A DNA stretch of 33,742 bases, taken from Hungatella sp. (GTDB lineage: Bacteria > Bacillota > Clostridia > Lachnospirales > Lachnospiraceae). Both the position numbers and the translations under genes were made by a program. Under the pieces are notes generated by a model, which saw only the letters and a list, made by a program, of their open reading frames with translations, was not told the origin of the DNA and made no database searches. Of the stretch, positions 2,132-33,733 are shown piece after piece. The stretch is taken from the NCBI GenBank assembly GCA_022796015.1, contig JAAWHU010000038.1:1-33742 (forward strand), read 5' to 3'. How positions within the stretch are numbered: position 1 is the first letter of the stretch; every line of letters begins with the position of its first letter.

Positions 2132-2923
2132 TCATTTACTATTTTCCCATAAACTTATTCCACAAACAATTTGTTCAAATTCCTCTATATCTATAACACC
2201 TTCTAGAATATAATAACAATTTCCCTCTACAATTCGGATACTAAATCCATTTTCCCCATTCTCTAATTTATCTTGATATATTAAAATATCTCTCTCAAAG
2301 AATGAATTATAAACTTTCTTATATGCTTCCATATCCGAGCCATAACTGAGTGAACTTGGCTTATCATTTATTCCTTGGGTTAAAAAGAGTTTGTTAATTC
2401 CATCACTAAATTCTATGACACCTTTTTTCTGTGTTATCACTACATTACAAAACACCACATTCTCTGGCAAATATGAAAGTTCTACTATTCTAGAGTTTAT
2501 CTGTTCTTCTATTTGAGCATACACTCTTTCTATTTCAGAATCATCGACCAAATTATTCTCATCATTATTAAAAACTACTGCATTTTCTATATCCGCCCTA
2601 TCCCTAACATCCTGCACATAATACCGCTTCGCTCCAACCCACATACCTCCGCCGATCACCATAGCGCCCAGAACCGCTGCTGCCACCAAAACCTTAACCA
2701 GCTTCCGCATCCGAATAACCTTATGCCCGACTGCCGGCTTTTCGTCTAGGCGGTCCATGATTTTTTGCAGCTCGCCTGCCGGAGGTCTTGAGGAATCGTC
2801 TTCTGCCTCTTCCTGCATCCGCTCCATCTCCTGTGCAAGCTGCTCCTCACCATATCCGAAGGCCTCTGGCAGACTTTGCTCTATGAAGTTGTCCTCTAAT
2901 TCTATCTGATTTCTGTTCTTCAC
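2132..2923 (-). CDS. DUF4367 domain membrane protein, anti-sigma-factor-like
   Basis: This 263-residue protein has an acidic cytoplasmic N-terminal region (about residues 1-70), one transmembrane segment (about 74-96, VKVLVAAAVLGAMVIGGGMWVG) and an extracellular C-terminal part. The last 120 residues (ELSYLPENVVFCNVVI to IEEFEQIVCGISLW) match the DUF4367 pattern. In Clostridia such proteins are usually encoded just after an ECF-type sigma factor and are thought to restrain it. Here the nearest sigma gene (4365-4898) is on the same strand but separated by murG. The start codon is GTG at 2923 with a GAGGG ribosome binding site 6 nt upstream. The anti-sigma role is inferred from architecture and neighbourhood. 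Confidence 0.75.
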   Translation of the reverse strand: MKNRNQIELEDNFIEQSLPEAFGYGEEQLAQEMERMQEEAEDDSSRPPAGELQKIMDRLDEKPAVGHKVIRMRKLVKVLVAAAVLGAMVIGGGMWVGAKRYYVQDVRDRADIENAVVFNNDENNLVDDSEIERVYAQIEEQINSRIVELSYLPENVVFCNVVITQKKGVIEFSDGINKLFLTQGINDKPSSLSYGSDMEAYKKVYNSFFERDILIYQDKLENGENGFSIRIVEGNCYYILEGVIDIEEFEQIVCGISLWENSK

Positions 2924-4364: not shown

Positions 4365-4898
4365 CTACAGCTTAAGCTGTAACTTCAAGTATTTTCTGAT
4401 TCTGGATACCCTCATTCTGCATGCAGCATTGCTGATATTCAAAATCTCACATACCTCAACCAGTGGCCGGCCTTCTATCAAATGAAGGACGGCTACCTCG
4501 CGCCAGGATGGCTTCATTTTCTCAATGCACTCCTGAATCTTGCGGGATTCCTCATCTGCAATCAACCGATCACAGACATCCCGCATCAGATGATATCTCA
4601 TGATGTTATACTCAATTTCGGAAGCCTTTGAATCAATGCTCACAATACGAATCCGTGTGGATCTTCGGAAATAATCGTGACAGCGATTCAGCAGAATCTT
4701 CATCAACACAGCTTTTCTCTGAGTCTCGTTCCAAGTCAAAGCTGTTTCTCCATATGAGCGCATAAATGCACAAAATGTATCCTGAATAATATCGTCAACT
4801 TCACACTCAGGCACCTTTTCTTTTAATGCCTTCAAGCGGAGTGGTCTCCAATATTTTTCGTACAGCGCCTGCAACAACTCTTTCTGCTCTTGTTGCAT
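4365..4898 (-). CDS. RNA polymerase sigma-70 family (ECF-type) sigma factor
   Basis: A 177-residue sigma factor with only the two DNA- and core-binding regions of ECF types. Region 2 covers about residues 10-85 (YEKYWRPLRLKALKEKVPECEVDDIIQDTFCAFMRSY, the last part being the typical core-binding helix). Region 4 covers about 125-175, with the helix-turn-helix PLVEVCEILNISNAACRMRVSRIRKYLK. AGGAG lies 6 nt before the ATG. It ends 1 nt from the convergent murG stop. It follows the HIT gene by 75 nt on the same strand. Its likely regulator is the DUF4367 protein at 2132-2923, though the two genes are split by murG. Target promoters are unknown. Confidence 0.85.
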   Translation of the reverse strand: MQQEQKELLQALYEKYWRPLRLKALKEKVPECEVDDIIQDTFCAFMRSYGETALTWNETQRKAVLMKILLNRCHDYFRRSTRIRIVSIDSKASEIEYNIMRYHLMRDVCDRLIADEESRKIQECIEKMKPSWREVAVLHLIEGRPLVEVCEILNISNAACRMRVSRIRKYLKLQLKL

Positions 4899-14767: not shown

Positions 14768-15762
14768 GTCTGTACTCCTTTCAGCAGCTTTCTCACATAG
14801 TCTCCCAGCTCTCCCCACAGAAGCTGTTCCATATAGGTGTCTTTTCTCCCGAAGCTGCTGTGATAAGGAAGCTTTGTCTTATAAATCCGCTGATGAAGGG
14901 TCTCCTGCCCTGACAGCTGAAGATATTCTTCAAATTCCTCAACTTTTGCTGAAGAGACACAATCCTCCTTCACCGGCATATACACCATATCGCAGTTTTC
15001 CAGGATAGGAATAACATTACAAAGAACCTGTCCCACATCCACAATCACATAATCATAACCACATTGGCAGGCCATGTGTTCCACCAGAAGGGCAGCCTCT
15101 TCTCCAGTCAGCTGCTCCAGGTCCTGAGGATATTTTACCGGCGGAATGTATTCCATGTCCTTCCAGCTGTACACCATGCTTTTGAGCCTCATGACTCCAA
15201 AGTCATCCTGGCGGAAAAAATACAGTACATCTGACAGGTCTCCTCTGCATTCATCGCTGATCAATTTTCTGAATCCGGAAAATGTTTCAAAGCTCATATA
15301 GATGACTTTATGTTCCCTGGCCAGCTGCTGTCCCATAGTGAGAGCCAGAGAGGTCTTTAAGCACCTGTTTATGGGAGAGTAGATACCCAAAACCTTTGCC
15401 CGCCTCCCTATGGCTACAAACTGGGACTGAGGCTTTTCGCAATAATAGGACATGACCTCCCGCACCAAAGTGTCTGCAGATTGGTACTTATAGACACTTG
15501 GGTAGCTTCCTGCTGCAGATACAATCTCTCCTTCTGCAAGAGTGACCACAGCCTGGGCCTTAACCTCCTCTATCTGCTTTTGCAGCACCGCTCCGCTGAC
15601 CAGAAGGATCTCTATGGTGTGATTGTTTCCATAGGCTTTTAAGGCTTCCAGTGATGTAAAAGGCACAACCATAAAGGGTGTCTTTGCCTTCTGATTCACC
15701 ACATCGGCAAATCGTTGGGCATAACAGGCGTCCACATCATAGACCGCCATGATTTTTTCCAT
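14764..15762 (-). CDS. tadZ: TadZ/CpaE-like P-loop localisation protein with altered Walker A
   Basis: 332 residues. The N-terminal third resembles a degenerate receiver domain (AVYDVDACYAQRFADVV.., EILLVSGAVL), as in CpaE/TadZ. The C-terminal two thirds are a MinD/ParA-like ATPase fold: GIYSPINRCLKTSLALTMGQ where the deviant Walker A belongs, and CGYDYVIVDVGQ as the Walker B region. The glycine normally before the catalytic Lys-Thr is Leu here, so ATP binding may be weak. TadZ proteins place the pilus machinery in the cell. ATG 15762 has AGGAGG 4 nt upstream; the longer frame to 15804 lacks this. It lies directly upstream of tadA with a 4-nt ATGA overlap. Confidence 0.82.
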   Translation of the reverse strand: MEKIMAVYDVDACYAQRFADVVNQKAKTPFMVVPFTSLEALKAYGNNHTIEILLVSGAVLQKQIEEVKAQAVVTLAEGEIVSAAGSYPSVYKYQSADTLVREVMSYYCEKPQSQFVAIGRRAKVLGIYSPINRCLKTSLALTMGQQLAREHKVIYMSFETFSGFRKLISDECRGDLSDVLYFFRQDDFGVMRLKSMVYSWKDMEYIPPVKYPQDLEQLTGEEAALLVEHMACQCGYDYVIVDVGQVLCNVIPILENCDMVYMPVKEDCVSSAKVEEFEEYLQLSGQETLHQRIYKTKLPYHSSFGRKDTYMEQLLWGELGDYVRKLLKGVQT

Positions 15763-15903
15763 GATACCTCCTTTGTAAAATGTCAGAGTCAAAAAGTCAT
15801 CCATGGCGCCCCCATGTCAGCACATGACCTCAAGACCCGAAAAAATTTCTATTTCTGTACGGTTCTGTCAGCACAATCTCTCTGCATTAAAAATTCTTCT
15901 CCA

Positions 15904-16428
15904 TCACCCCCCATAATACAGCAGGCTCATTACATAACCTGCCATCAGGCAAAAACCTAACGGAATCACCACAGTTCTCCCATCTCTTGATGCCTCATAA
16001 TAGGGCATCCGTTCTCCAGTCAGGAACAACCGCCTGAAATAGGCGAAACAATACCTAAGACGCTGATGCAAGTTTCTGCACACCAGCATTTTCAGAAAAG
16101 CCAGAACGGCTCCAATGAAAAATCCATATAACACAGCGCGGGCGCCGGCCCTAAATCCAAGATATCCGGCCATAAGCGCCATTAATTTTATATCTCCGGC
16201 CCCTATCATACGAAGCCAGAACAGGGGAAACCACAGGACTGTCACTGCAAGGATCCTTCCCCCATAGAGCAGAAGCTGCCACAGGTTTTCACCTGGCAGA
16301 GCCCAAGTCCAGGTAAGGATGAATCCTCCCACCAGAGCGCATATGCACCACCAGTTGGGAATTCTGTGTTCCCTGATATCATACCAGGCTCCTCCCAGCA
16401 ATACTACCAGCAAAAGCCCTGAATCCAT
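15904..16428 (-). CDS. tadV: A24 prepilin peptidase (TadV/CpaA-like), first gene of the Tad operon
   Basis: A 174-residue polytopic membrane aspartyl protease that removes the leader from Flp prepilin and TadE-like pseudopilins. The catalytic aspartates are Asp17 in WYDIREHRIPN and Asp79 in MIGAGDIKLM (the GxGD motif). There is no N-terminal methyltransferase domain, as usual for the CpaA/TadV group. ATG 16428 is preceded in frame by TTG 16431; an AGGAGG lies 16 or 13 nt upstream respectively, rather far, so the start is not certain. A 141-nt gap separates it from tadZ. Its 5' leader is long and structured (see 16540-16669). Confidence 0.9.
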   Translation of the reverse strand: MDSGLLLVVLLGGAWYDIREHRIPNWWCICALVGGFILTWTWALPGENLWQLLLYGGRILAVTVLWFPLFWLRMIGAGDIKLMALMAGYLGFRAGARAVLYGFFIGAVLAFLKMLVCRNLHQRLRYCFAYFRRLFLTGERMPYYEASRDGRTVVIPLGFCLMAGYVMSLLYYGG

Positions 16429-16480
16429 CAAAATAAACCATCCACCTCCTCATTAACTTTCTGTCTTCTCACAGGAATCT

Positions 16481-16515
16481 TTGCCCGAAACGGGCGGTAA
16501 TATCAAATATTACGG
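16481..16515 (-). repeat. Two adjacent perfect hairpins in the Tad leader
   Basis: GCCCG-AAA-CGGGC (from 16483) and GTAATAT-CAA-ATATTAC (from about 16497) are two back-to-back perfect stem-loops located between the structured leader element and the tadV ribosome binding site. Neither is followed by a T-run on the minus strand, so they are not ordinary terminators. They may fold the region around the initiation site. Confidence 0.55.
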
Positions 16516-16539
16516 AATTACTGAACATTTATGAATTGT

Positions 16540-16669
16540 GCTGAACATGGGACGGGGGAACCTAAGCTCCGCGCTGCCTGGATGACTTGCTGCACAGTCG
16601 GACAGGAAACCCAAGTTCCGAGCTGCTATGTCTTGACAGCCAATGGCTTCTCGCAGAAATGCGTTCAGC
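16540..16669 (-). ncRNA. Candidate structured leader RNA of the Tad operon
   Basis: The predicted minus-strand transcript begins at about 16671, and its first bases GCTGAAC (16669-16663) can pair perfectly with GTTCAGC (16546-16540), closing a domain of about 130 nt. Inside are a CGCA-TTTC-TGCG hairpin, a GCCATTGGC dyad, and two copies of a related module (16600-16625 and 16550-16576, 50 nt apart), each with a small GGA..UCC-type hairpin. I could not match it to a riboswitch consensus I know (c-di-GMP-I, c-di-GMP-II, ydaO, glycine, FMN, T-box were considered). It could be a regulatory RNA or a protein-binding leader. The folding is by eye. Confidence 0.5.
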
Positions 16670-16677
16670 TATTTTTC

Positions 16678-16706
16678 ATTATGCATAACAAAGTCGGAAA
16701 TGTCAA
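16678..16706 (-). promoter_or_regulatory. Promoter of the Tad pilus operon
   Basis: Minus strand: TTGACA (16706-16701), a 17-nt spacer, CATAAT (16683-16678). This is a near-consensus vegetative promoter with a predicted start near 16671. It leaves a leader of about 240 nt before tadV. Confidence 0.8.
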
Positions 16707-16749
16707 GGACTTTTTTTCCTATTCTCTGTCAATTTTTTCACAGTCTTGG

Positions 16750-16778
16750 TTGACCCCCTTCTGGTAAAATGGTAAAAT
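16750..16778 (+). promoter_or_regulatory. Promoter of the DUF2508-glgB operon
   Basis: Plus strand: TTGACC (16750-16755), a 17-nt spacer, TAAAAT (16773-16778). It is divergent from the Tad promoter and about 45 nt away from it, with a leader of about 75 nt before the DUF2508 gene. Confidence 0.75.
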
Positions 16779-16860
16779 AGAGTCAAATTTCCATGTATAA
16801 AACTTCCATTTCCGGCAATACTGTTTCTATCAAATTACCTATTTTCAGGAGATGATGGAT

Positions 16861-17088
16861 ATGAGACATGGAAAAAAATTAAGCGCGGCCCTGTCCAGAT
16901 TCAGGGAACGTCAGGCTCTTCGGGCAGAGATTGAGCAGACACGCCACAGCATTGATTCGGCAAGGAATCATTTTGAACACGTAGTGGACCCGACTCTCAT
17001 CGACTGCTATATCTACGAACTCAACGCGGCGCAGCTGCGGTATCAGTTTCTGCTGCGCAGATTCAAGAGTCTGGAGGTGGACGCGTAG
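16861..17088 (+). CDS. DUF2508 (YaaL-type) small protein
   Basis: A 75-residue, mostly helical protein with the DUF2508 pattern: a basic N terminus, then EIEQTRHSIDSARNHFEHVVDPTLIDCYIYELNAAQLRYQFLLRRFK. Members are small cytoplasmic proteins of unknown function; the Bacillus relative YaaL is encoded by recR. Here it lies upstream of glgB with a 43-nt gap and shares its promoter. The frame opens at 16852 with ATG ATG GAT ATG; only the ATG at 16861 has a proper distance (9 nt) from AGGAG, so it is chosen. Confidence 0.8.
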   Translation: MRHGKKLSAALSRFRERQALRAEIEQTRHSIDSARNHFEHVVDPTLIDCYIYELNAAQLRYQFLLRRFKSLEVDA

Positions 17089-17131
17089 GGCAGCTGGGGG
17101 GCTGTCTTAAAACTTATGGAGGAATAAATTT

Positions 17132-19042
17132 ATGGCACGCAGCAAAAAAGAATTGGGTACAGGGTTTATCACCGAGACCGACCGCTACCTCTTTGGAGAA
17201 GGAACACATTATCAGATTTATGAAAAACTCGGGGCTCATCCAAAGACTTACCGCAGAAAAGAAGGCATGTATTTTGCCGTGTGGGCGCCCCATGCCCAGT
17301 CGGTGGGTGTGGTAGGGGATTTTAATGACTGGAATCCCGACGCCACTCCCATGGAGGCTTTGGGAAGTTCCGGCATTTATGAAGTGTTCGTGCCGGGGCT
17401 GGGAACAGGTCAGCTATACAAGTATGCCATCACCACATCCGACGGAAAAGTGCTGTTTAAGGCCGATCCTTATGCATTTGAGGCAGAATACCGTCCCGGT
17501 ACTGCTTCCATAACCTCAGATCTTTCAGGTTTTGCCTGGAAAGACGACACCTGGATGGCCAAGAGAAAAGAAGCCAGCCTTCTTTCCTCACCCCTTGCCA
17601 TTTATGAAGTTCATCTGGGTTCCTGGAAAAAGCAGAGTCGGGAGGAAAAAGATGGATACTATACCTACATAGAGGCCGCTCATGAGCTGGCGGCTTATGT
17701 AAAGGAGATGGGATATACCCATGTGGAGCTTATGGGAATTGCCGAGCATCCTTTTGACGGCTCCTGGGGATATCAGGTAACCGGCTATTATGCTCCCACC
17801 TCCCGCTACGGCACCCCTAAAGACTTCATGTATTTTGTGAACTATATGCACAAAAAAGGAATCGGAGTGATTCTTGACTGGGTTCCCGCCCATTTCCCAC
17901 GGGATGCCCATGGACTGGCAGACTTTGACGGGCAGCCTCTCTATGAGTATGCAGATACCAGAAAAGGGGAACACCCGGACTGGGGGACGAAAGTCTTTGA
18001 TTACGAGAAACATGAAGTATCCAACTTCCTCATCGCCAATGCACTCTACTGGATTGAGAAATATCATATCGATGGCCTCCGGGTAGATGCCGTGGCCTCT
18101 ATGCTGTACTTAGATTATGGACGTTCCGGCGGCAACTGGGTGCCCAACAAATACGGCGACAACAAAAACCTGGAAGCCATTGAGTTCTTTAAGCATCTCA
18201 ACAGTATTGTAAACCAGAGAGCCGGCGGCGCCATGGTGATTGCCGAGGAGTCCACTGCATGGCCTATGGTGACAGGCAAGCCGGAAGATGGAGGCCTGGG
18301 ATTTAAGTTTAAGTGGAATATGGGCTGGATGCATGACTTTTTGGAATACATGAAGCTGGATCCCTATTTCCGCAAATATAATCACAACAAGATGACCTTC
18401 GGCATGACCTATGCCACCAGCGAGAACTTTATCCTGGTTCTGTCCCACGACGAGGTGGTTCACTTAAAGTGCTCCATGATCAACAAAATGCCCGGCCTTG
18501 GCGATGACAAATTTGCCAATTTAAAAGTCGGATACACCTTTATGATGGGCCATCCCGGCAAGAAACTTCTGTTTATGGGCCAGGATTTCGGCCAGCTCCA
18601 CGAGTGGGATGAAAAAGTCTCCTTAGACTGGTATTTGACGGAAGAACCTGCTCACAAGGACCTTCAGAACTACTTTAAGGATCTGCTCCACATTTACCAG
18701 AAATACCCGGCCATGTACAGCCTGGACTATGACTGGGACGGATTCCAGTGGATCAATGCCAACGATGGGGACCGGAGTATTTTCAGCTTTGTCCGCCGCA
18801 GCAAGACCGGCAAGCAGAACCTGCTGTTTATCTGCAATTTTACTCCTGTGGCCAGGCCGGACTACCGCATAGGTGTGCCTAAGAAAGGCAATTTCTCCCT
18901 GATTCTCGATCAGAGCCACGGCCTCTATAAACCGGGTGATGACAAAGTGACCTACCGCTCCACCAAATCCGAGTGTGATGGCCAGCCTTATTCCTTTGCC
19001 TATCCTCTTCCTGCCTACGGAACCGCGATTTTCCGTTTCTAA
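17132..19042 (+). CDS. glgB: 1,4-alpha-glucan branching enzyme
   Basis: A 636-residue GH13 branching enzyme that introduces alpha-1,6 branches during glycogen synthesis. It has the N-terminal CBM48-like domain (YFAVWAPHAQSVGVVGDFNDWNP), the catalytic barrel with nucleophile Asp319 in GLRVDAVASMLYLDY, acid/base Glu372 in VIAEESTAWP and Asp440 in LSHDEVVH, and a C-terminal beta domain. SWGYQVTGYYAPTSRYG is also diagnostic. GGAGG lies 9 nt upstream of the ATG. It follows the DUF2508 gene and is followed by a hairpin terminator. No other glycogen genes are in the window, so glgB is separated from any glgC/A/P cluster. Confidence 0.96.
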   Translation: MARSKKELGTGFITETDRYLFGEGTHYQIYEKLGAHPKTYRRKEGMYFAVWAPHAQSVGVVGDFNDWNPDATPMEALGSSGIYEVFVPGLGTGQLYKYAITTSDGKVLFKADPYAFEAEYRPGTASITSDLSGFAWKDDTWMAKRKEASLLSSPLAIYEVHLGSWKKQSREEKDGYYTYIEAAHELAAYVKEMGYTHVELMGIAEHPFDGSWGYQVTGYYAPTSRYGTPKDFMYFVNYMHKKGIGVILDWVPAHFPRDAHGLADFDGQPLYEYADTRKGEHPDWGTKVFDYEKHEVSNFLIANALYWIEKYHIDGLRVDAVASMLYLDYGRSGGNWVPNKYGDNKNLEAIEFFKHLNSIVNQRAGGAMVIAEESTAWPMVTGKPEDGGLGFKFKWNMGWMHDFLEYMKLDPYFRKYNHNKMTFGMTYATSENFILVLSHDEVVHLKCSMINKMPGLGDDKFANLKVGYTFMMGHPGKKLLFMGQDFGQLHEWDEKVSLDWYLTEEPAHKDLQNYFKDLLHIYQKYPAMYSLDYDWDGFQWINANDGDRSIFSFVRRSKTGKQNLLFICNFTPVARPDYRIGVPKKGNFSLILDQSHGLYKPGDDKVTYRSTKSECDGQPYSFAYPLPAYGTAIFRF

Positions 19043-25839: not shown

Positions 25840-25880
25840 ATCTTGCTGATTCCACGGCAAACCATCCTTGCCTGTCAACC

Positions 25881-25987
25881 ATCTTCTTTCATCCAGACTA
25901 TACTGTCGGCCCCGGAATCTCACCGGATCATGCCTTTCGGCTCGCGGGCTGTACCGCCGGTAGGGATTTGCACCCTGCCCTGAAGAT
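25881..25987 (-). ncRNA. FMN riboswitch (RFN element)
   Basis: The minus strand shows the conserved RFN core: ATCTTCAGGGCAGGGTG at the 5' end, then AATCCCTACCGGCGGTA, AGCCCGCGAGCC, GATCCGGTGAGATTCCGG and GCCGACAGTATAGTCTGGAT, ending GAAGAT. P1 is ATCTTC (25987-25982) with GAAGAT (25886-25881). Bound FMN should favour the downstream terminator and shut off ribD-ribE-ribBA-ribH. Confidence 0.97.
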
Positions 25988-26006
25988 CTGTATTCAACTG
26001 GTGATC

Positions 26007-33561: not shown

Positions 33562-33575
33562 CCTTTGAAAATTAG

Positions 33576-33646
33576 AGGCGACAACCAGATTTGAACTGGT
33601 GATCAGGGTGTTGCAGACCCACGCCTTACCGCTTGGCTATGTCGCC
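33576..33646 (-). tRNA. tRNA-Cys (GCA)
   Basis: A complete cloverleaf of 71 nt. The acceptor stem is GGCGACA with TGTCGCC, discriminator U73 (the cysteine identity base), D-arm AGCCAAGCGGTAAGGCG, anticodon loop CTGCAAC with GCA, and T-arm CCAGTTCAAATCTGG. CCA is not encoded. It lies 15 nt after tRNA-Glu and is probably co-transcribed with it. Confidence 0.96.
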
Positions 33647-33661
33647 GTATTATATATCAAA

Positions 33662-33733
33662 TGACCCCAACGAGATTCGAACTCGTGTTACCGCCGTGAA
33701 AGGGCGATGTCTTAACCGCTTGACCATGGGGCC
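33662..33733 (-). tRNA. tRNA-Glu (UUC)
   Basis: A complete cloverleaf of 72 nt. The acceptor stem is GGCCCCA with TGGGGTC (one G-U pair), D-arm GGTCAAGCGGTTAAGAC, anticodon loop CTTTCAC with TTC, and T-arm ACGAGTTCGAATCTCGT. CCA is not encoded. Its promoter lies beyond the right edge of the window. Confidence 0.97.

Follow-up and report, generated by a model that had tools for sequence, protein, structure and literature searches.

A putative modular leader RNA of UC-loop hairpins and AUUC(C) sites upstream of Lachnospiraceae tad pilus operons

The tad pilus operon of a Hungatella-like member of the Lachnospiraceae is preceded by a structured leader RNA which, as read from its sequence, is probably regulatory in cis, with conserved hairpins that carry compensatory changes situated between the promoter and the first gene. 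We consider the chances about even that this leader is modular, with UC-loop hairpins and AUUC(C) sites arrayed along it and recognized by an RNA-binding protein or, less likely, by an sRNA. The fixed element of such an array would be the hairpin with AUUCC at 16495–16474; a multivalent RNA-binding protein (less likely an sRNA) would bind the repeated UC/AUUC elements, and binding would govern the tad mRNA at the level of translation, stability or readthrough. Along the lineage of the window, by which we mean the whole stretch of 33,742 nt analysed, about 125 nt would have been added to the array, in part through tandem duplication, and the P1-closed domain singled out by the initial annotation would fall within the added sequence. 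The features of the region are as follows.

16678–16706, minus strand: tad operon promoter, TTGACA-17-CATAAT (extended form TGCATAAT), matching 11/12 consensus positions and recurring in relatives
16671, minus strand: transcription start predicted from sequence by the spacing rule, 7 nt past the −10 box
16540–16669, minus strand: domain of the initial annotation, with P1 arms at 16669–16663 and 16546–16540; read as about 125 nt added in this lineage rather than as a conserved RNA
16652–16663, minus strand: candidate hairpin 1, CGCA-UUUC-UGCG, in place and loop type as in other genera
16531–16626, minus strand: diverged tandem duplication of about 46 nt, copies at 16626–16582 and 16577–16531, from gapped alignment
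16521–16545, minus strand: conserved AUUCA-type segment (TTCAGCACAATTCATAAATGTTCAG), which aligns with CAGTCAGCACAATTCATAA of relatives
16474–16495, minus strand: core, consisting of hairpin GCCC-GUUUC-GGGC (16495–16483), A at 16482, AAG and AUUCC (16478–16474), from conservation, covariation and a CM score of 41.9 bits
16445–16450, minus strand: Shine–Dalgarno sequence AGGAGG of tadV, from sequence
15904–16431, minus strand: tadV, prepilin peptidase (Peptidase_A24, 8.9e-12), first gene of the tad operon

Genomic setting and promoter

The source genome is of metagenome type (3.7 Mb in 163 contigs). Downstream of tadV follow tadZ-like, T2SSE and T2SSF genes and DUF5702, and the initially flagged interval sits between the promoter-like site at 16706–16678 and tadV at 16431–15904. 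Elsewhere in the window, a sigma-70 region-4 (ECF-like) gene (4365–4898, minus strand) has a DUF4367 gene (2132–2923, minus strand) nearby, a possible sigma/anti-sigma pair.

The near-consensus promoter proposed at the outset is upheld by its 11 of 12 consensus matches and by its recurrence before tadV in the upstream regions of relatives; sites of such quality are not significant alone, with 4 in 2.5 kb against 3.0 ± 1.9 in shuffles. One leader, L073, was added to the set by eye and has TATCAT as its −10 box. The exact pattern TTGACnTT..CATAAT-N6-ACATTC is found a single time in each of 7 genomes out of 15 chosen, with identical spacing and always at a tad leader with tadV downstream, the conserved ACATTC beginning exactly 7 nt after CATAAT in all seven. 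Among 140 family genomes the exact combination of promoter and ACATTC is present in five, of which four are the same tad leaders and one (G084) has no tadV nearby. The spacing from the −10 box agrees with the initially predicted start at about 16671 and, as the tadV ORF runs from 16431, with a predicted leader of about 240 nt. A scan of 15500–18000 listed no minus-strand terminator between 16671 and 16431 that would point to a riboregulator acting by intrinsic termination.

A conserved core hairpin followed by AUUCC

Leaders were sampled by TadV homology, which gave 24 loci from a contig search (Hungatella and other Lachnospiraceae) in addition to matches in 25 of 26 genomes of the same genus. 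Upon removal of 15 duplicates and of a paralogue without the promoter (L081), 33 distinct leaders remained, or 34 with the window; L082 and the coreless L157 were also left out. The locus L122 (genome G393) was dropped as a two-unit leader, its downstream gene not being tadV; it is counted in the figures on pairing probability, stem and loop types and 5′ complements.

All 34 distinct leaders, that is the 33 relatives chosen by TadV homology and the window, possess a 4-bp hairpin followed 3–7 nt on by (A/T)TCC, and its loop has 4–6 nt and ends in UC, a loop figure that holds partly by construction because the core finder rewarded GC pairs, A and UC-ending loops. An A directly follows the stem in 33 of the 34 (G in L050). 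The core, which the initial annotation missed both in its hairpin (16495–16483) and in the AUUCC that follows, lies upstream of the Shine–Dalgarno sequence of tadV and in most relatives about 25–45 nt upstream of the ribosome-binding site.

The stem changes while its pairing is kept. Where the loop has 5 nt (19 leaders), the 76 pair cells contain no non-standard pair, and two-sided change is seen at every one of the four pairs; the covariation score is 0.257 against 0.152 ± 0.015 in shuffles, none of 500 of which reach it, and slid versions collapse. Where the loop has 6 nt (10 leaders), two pairs are invariant and the other two are changed on both sides; here the count of two-sided pairs does not exceed shuffles (317/500), but the cells with two-sided change (0/500) and the covariation score (0/500) do. 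On a TadV tree of 32 rows, from which L190, L210 and L176 were left out for their short protein matches, the minimum numbers of state changes for the four core pairs are 2, 2, 4 and 4, one-sided changes included.

The 41 leaders tabulated for stem and loop type (L122 included; L134, L135 and L175 left out as they have no clean 4-bp core) have GCCC/GGGC in 23 cases, GCTG/CAGC in 4 and GCCG/CGGC in 3, alongside nine rarer types, and the stem is fully paired in 40. Their loops end in UUC in 22 and in AUC in 17, and UUC is therefore not strictly conserved in the core. By ViennaRNA, the mean pair probability of the core is below 0.5 in 9 of 40 leaders, L122 included, and UUCC, treated here as a single-stranded site, is predicted to be paired (probability at least 0.5) in 31 of 40, L122 included.

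With respect to specificity, the core model finds the tad leader in the window's genome at E 2.2e-9, followed by matches at E 0.2 and 2.08. The model R1, built on the 19 leaders with 5-nt loops, recovers 25 of 34 searched leaders at E ≤ 1 and misses most of those with 6-nt loops; of its 12 other matches 11 fall in tadV coding sequence and one elsewhere. Within tadV of the window (16021–16051, minus strand), the hairpin GCCT-ATTTC-AGGC followed by GGTTGTTCC resembles the core (18.6 bits) and occupies the same place in other tadV genes, which coding conservation may explain. Family-wide, R1 matched 46 of 397 genomes at E ≤ 0.05, and the 29 loci inspected (L114 excepted) include five tadV leaders (L098, L099, L104, L107 and L112), with tadV on the other strand in L107 and L112; the remaining contexts have no tadV directly downstream.

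A tadV-like match at 1e-8 is found in 115 of 298 family genomes. Of 113 further tadV-like upstream regions, 88 were examined by regular expression and by eye: nine have the core (finder score at least 7), four have variants recognized by eye (L132, L135, L175 and L210) and 75 have none. Some of the nine repeat known leaders at the core (for example, L127 equals L045, and L128 equals L044), and many of the 75 coreless regions may belong to other prepilin peptidases or to genes that are not first in their operon. A palindromic core-like match, L221 in genome G017, lies inside an ORF of 955 aa, transglutaminase-like by sequence reading, and was rejected as a false hit of a short model.

The leader start and repeated UC/AUUC motifs

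Beyond the core, conservation extends to the 5′ end. Past the −10 box, Hungatella hathewayi, H. effluvii, [Clostridium] aerotolerans and other genera have N6-ACATTC or a close form followed by a hairpin whose loop contains UUC; in several other Lachnospiraceae genera the predicted transcript would begin with ACAUUC and lead into a second covarying hairpin with UUC in the loop. In the six gap-free leaders with 5-nt loops, bulged copies and those with loops of 4 or 6 nt having been left out of the count, five of six pairs of this hairpin 1 are changed on both sides with the loop UUC invariant, and the covariation score is reached by 0 of 500 shuffles. Most leaders within the window's genus have no clear hairpin 1. 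The candidate in the window is weak and was chosen post hoc; a 4-bp hairpin of this kind arises in 18 of 1000 shuffles of the 45-nt stretch.

The same loop type recurs along the leaders. In tests that were framed after looking at the leaders, and with figures that overstate independence because the leader sequences are related, 11 of 18 loops of hairpins of at least 5 bp upstream of the core in 42 leaders contain UUC or end in UC, against 0.95 ± 0.94 in shuffles (maximum 3 in 200 runs); with the core included the figures are 15 of 23 against 1.75 ± 1.32, and 16 of 25 loops with L122 still included. Subject to the same reservations, ATTCA occurs 39 times between start and core in 33 leaders against 13.5 ± 3.4 in shuffles (0 of 200 reach it), and GTTCA is not enriched there (6 against 7.6 in shuffles).

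These motifs bear on the two most serious competitors of the array reading. The hairpin with AUUCC could be an element of mRNA stability or processing, a 5′ stabilizer or RNase site without a dedicated regulator, as might be expected of a single-copy short stem at a conserved position near the ribosome-binding site; we hold this to be unlikely, as such an element would have no need for the conservation of UC-ending loops, AUUCC or ACAUUC starts alongside covarying stems. Alternatively, the leader could be the target of a trans-acting sRNA with GAA/GGAAU loops that pair with the UUC loops and AUUCC. Repeated short unpaired motifs of constant sequence at variable spacing are in line with this proposal, which is nevertheless improbable, as the variation between UUC and AUC in the core loops is awkward for base pairing.

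A lineage-specific expansion in the window

The initial annotation had drawn a different structure, an aptamer-like domain of 130 nt closed by a P1 stem. Its arms GCTGAAC (16669–16663) and GTTCAGC (16546–16540) are indeed perfect complements and close the MFE structure; on the other hand, the 5′ end finds a complementary run of 7 nt or longer in 82 of 1000 dinucleotide shuffles of the window's leader. Seven of 43 other leaders also possess such a complement, read as mostly their hairpin 1. The folding energy has a z of −0.71 for the 242-nt leader and of −0.65 for 16540–16669, and pairing of P1 and folding energy of the flagged interval are near chance.

Among the other 33 distinct tadV leaders, drawn from the genus and neighbouring groups, none has a homologue of the flagged domain, and none offers a counterpart to its P1 stem that would show conservation with covariation. 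In these 33 relatives 36–90 nt separate the −10 box from the core hairpin, versus 182 nt in the window. L032, the closest relative by the TadV tree (76% identity, in a supported clade), is of the short type, and the domain was found only in this genome. Leader length is labile, since L133 of another genus is also long, with the core 168 nt after the −10 box.

The riboswitch initially proposed, closed by P1 and sensing a second messenger, had in its favour that P1 closes the MFE fold and that the operon makes a pilus. It is now very improbable: P1 as the terminal stem of a riboswitch lacks support when the domain is missing from the 33 relatives, P1 and energy lie within the range of shuffles and Rfam offers no match, and what is conserved is of too small a size and too variable a spacing to resemble one aptamer fold. 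Judged from sequence, small hairpins at variable spacing look more like a protein- or RNA-binding array than like a ligand-binding aptamer. That the tad operon carries a structured and probably regulatory 5′ leader is, by contrast, supported by the covarying hairpins, the conserved motifs and the conserved position of the promoter. The initial annotation is upheld in part: a lineage-specific domain was mistaken for the real structured leader beside it.

Part of the extra sequence of about 125 nt is explained by the tandem duplication, the copies of which are identical in 36 of 44 aligned letters with 4 gap positions and align with a score of 47, whereas none of 300 shuffles scores above 33. 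Since the conserved leader start TTCAGCACAATTCAT forms the end of the second copy, the duplication happened in place. Tandem Repeats Finder reports no array in 16430–16720 and the repeat listing does not hold the 46-nt pair, which needed gapped alignment to be found. A short EKPLAV-like reading of 16661–16630 was dropped as chance.

A foreign mobile element as the source was rejected, as plasmids, phages, E. coli and family genomes hold no convincing relative of the extra 125 nt. Plasmids gave no match at E ≤ 1 and E. coli genomes none at E ≤ 0.1, the phage search gave a single 27-nt match in two records of one Pantoea phage (E 0.1), and two exact patterns of the extra sequence have 0 occurrences in viral contigs. 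Among 299 family genomes, 10 others match at E ≤ 0.1, the best over 33 nt at E 6.8e-4 per genome, which is about chance level for 299 genomes; the contexts of four of the 10 were inspected by eye and three looked coding. With no convincing relative elsewhere and a tandem duplication inside it, the flagged domain is therefore read as an expansion of the leader in this lineage. As the comparison covers one genome per species, the expansion may also be an assembly oddity.

Relation to known RNA families and regulatory systems

The initial annotation could not fit the leader to a known class, and Rfam 15 offers no match for it. At gathering score the whole window gives only an FMN riboswitch and two tRNAs and nothing in the leader; region 16400–16760 searched at E ≤ 10 gives the lone match ACA64 on the other strand (E 5.8, 11.5 bits versus 35 needed), and 13 related loci give none at E ≤ 1. 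The FMN riboswitch (25877–25991, minus strand, 112.4 bits) is an ordinary member of RF00050, and the tRNA genes, for tRNA-Cys and tRNA-Glu, are adjacent at the window end (33575–33733, minus strand). In the open-access literature, as judged by titles and abstract starts, no paper was found on leader-RNA control of Tad pili in gut Lachnospiraceae. The tad leader is uncatalogued, a claim of novelty that extends to Rfam 15 and the open-access literature searched.

Several systems share traits with the leader. Leaders recognized by ANTAR proteins contain dual hexaloops with A1 and G4; as in the tad leader two hairpins share a loop motif, although the tad loops have 4–6 nt and end in UC. CsrA/RsmE-type leaders are multivalent with the motif GGA and, like the tad leader, place several short motifs, in part within hairpin loops, at uneven intervals close to the ribosome-binding site, whereas the repeated motif here is UUC/AUUC. 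Cyclic di-GMP riboswitches on surface-structure genes are alike in being leader RNAs upstream of a pilus operon, but in contrast to them neither the window nor the 13 related loci have a corresponding Rfam match.

Two further explanations may be named. AUUCC could act as an anti-Shine–Dalgarno switch by pairing with GGAG or GGGG in the ribosome-binding site whenever it is not sequestered by a fold further upstream. The pairing probability between UUCC and the Shine–Dalgarno sequence is at least 0.25 in 8 of 40 leaders (L122 included); with a median of 0.00, and 0.00 in the window, a general role is unsupported and this switch hardly probable.

A small leader hairpin ahead of a long operon also recalls the dfn/mln leaders, where a hairpin of the UNCG tetraloop type is recognized and bound by LoaP (PMC12691694). 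The tad leader differs from these in its 4–6-nt loops ending in UC and its conserved AUUCC. The window's genome holds, besides one strong housekeeping NusG, five weaker NusG-domain matches on contigs C44, C131, C98 (two) and C112, which are candidate NusG paralogues. The tad leader of L190 (G252) has an extra hairpin TTCTGT-TTCG-GCAGAA, whose UUCG loop is of the UNCG type that LoaP binds. Processive antitermination across the long tad operon by a LoaP-type NusG paralogue that the leader hairpin would recruit, for which the weaker NusG-domain matches and the hairpin binding of LoaP (PMC12691694) would speak, is the least probable explanation of all, as no core loop is of the UNCG type; a UUCG loop occurs in one extra hairpin, that of L190.

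Outlook

Returning to the array, its broadest formulation is a tentative one, which we think somewhat more apt to fail than to hold: a previously undescribed class of leader RNA, restricted as far as seen to Lachnospiraceae tad operons, would form an array of UC loops and AUUC(C) sites from the first bases ACAUUC onwards, through which an RNA-binding protein would decide post-transcriptionally on Tad pili, and which would be able to lengthen when its own units are duplicated in tandem, as in the window. The example also illustrates that a striking fold of a single sequence can be lineage-specific filler that adjoins the real element. Tad pili are a machine for surface attachment, and as the leader is also present in the cultured species Hungatella hathewayi, H. 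effluvii and [Clostridium] aerotolerans, a direct experimental handle on it is available.
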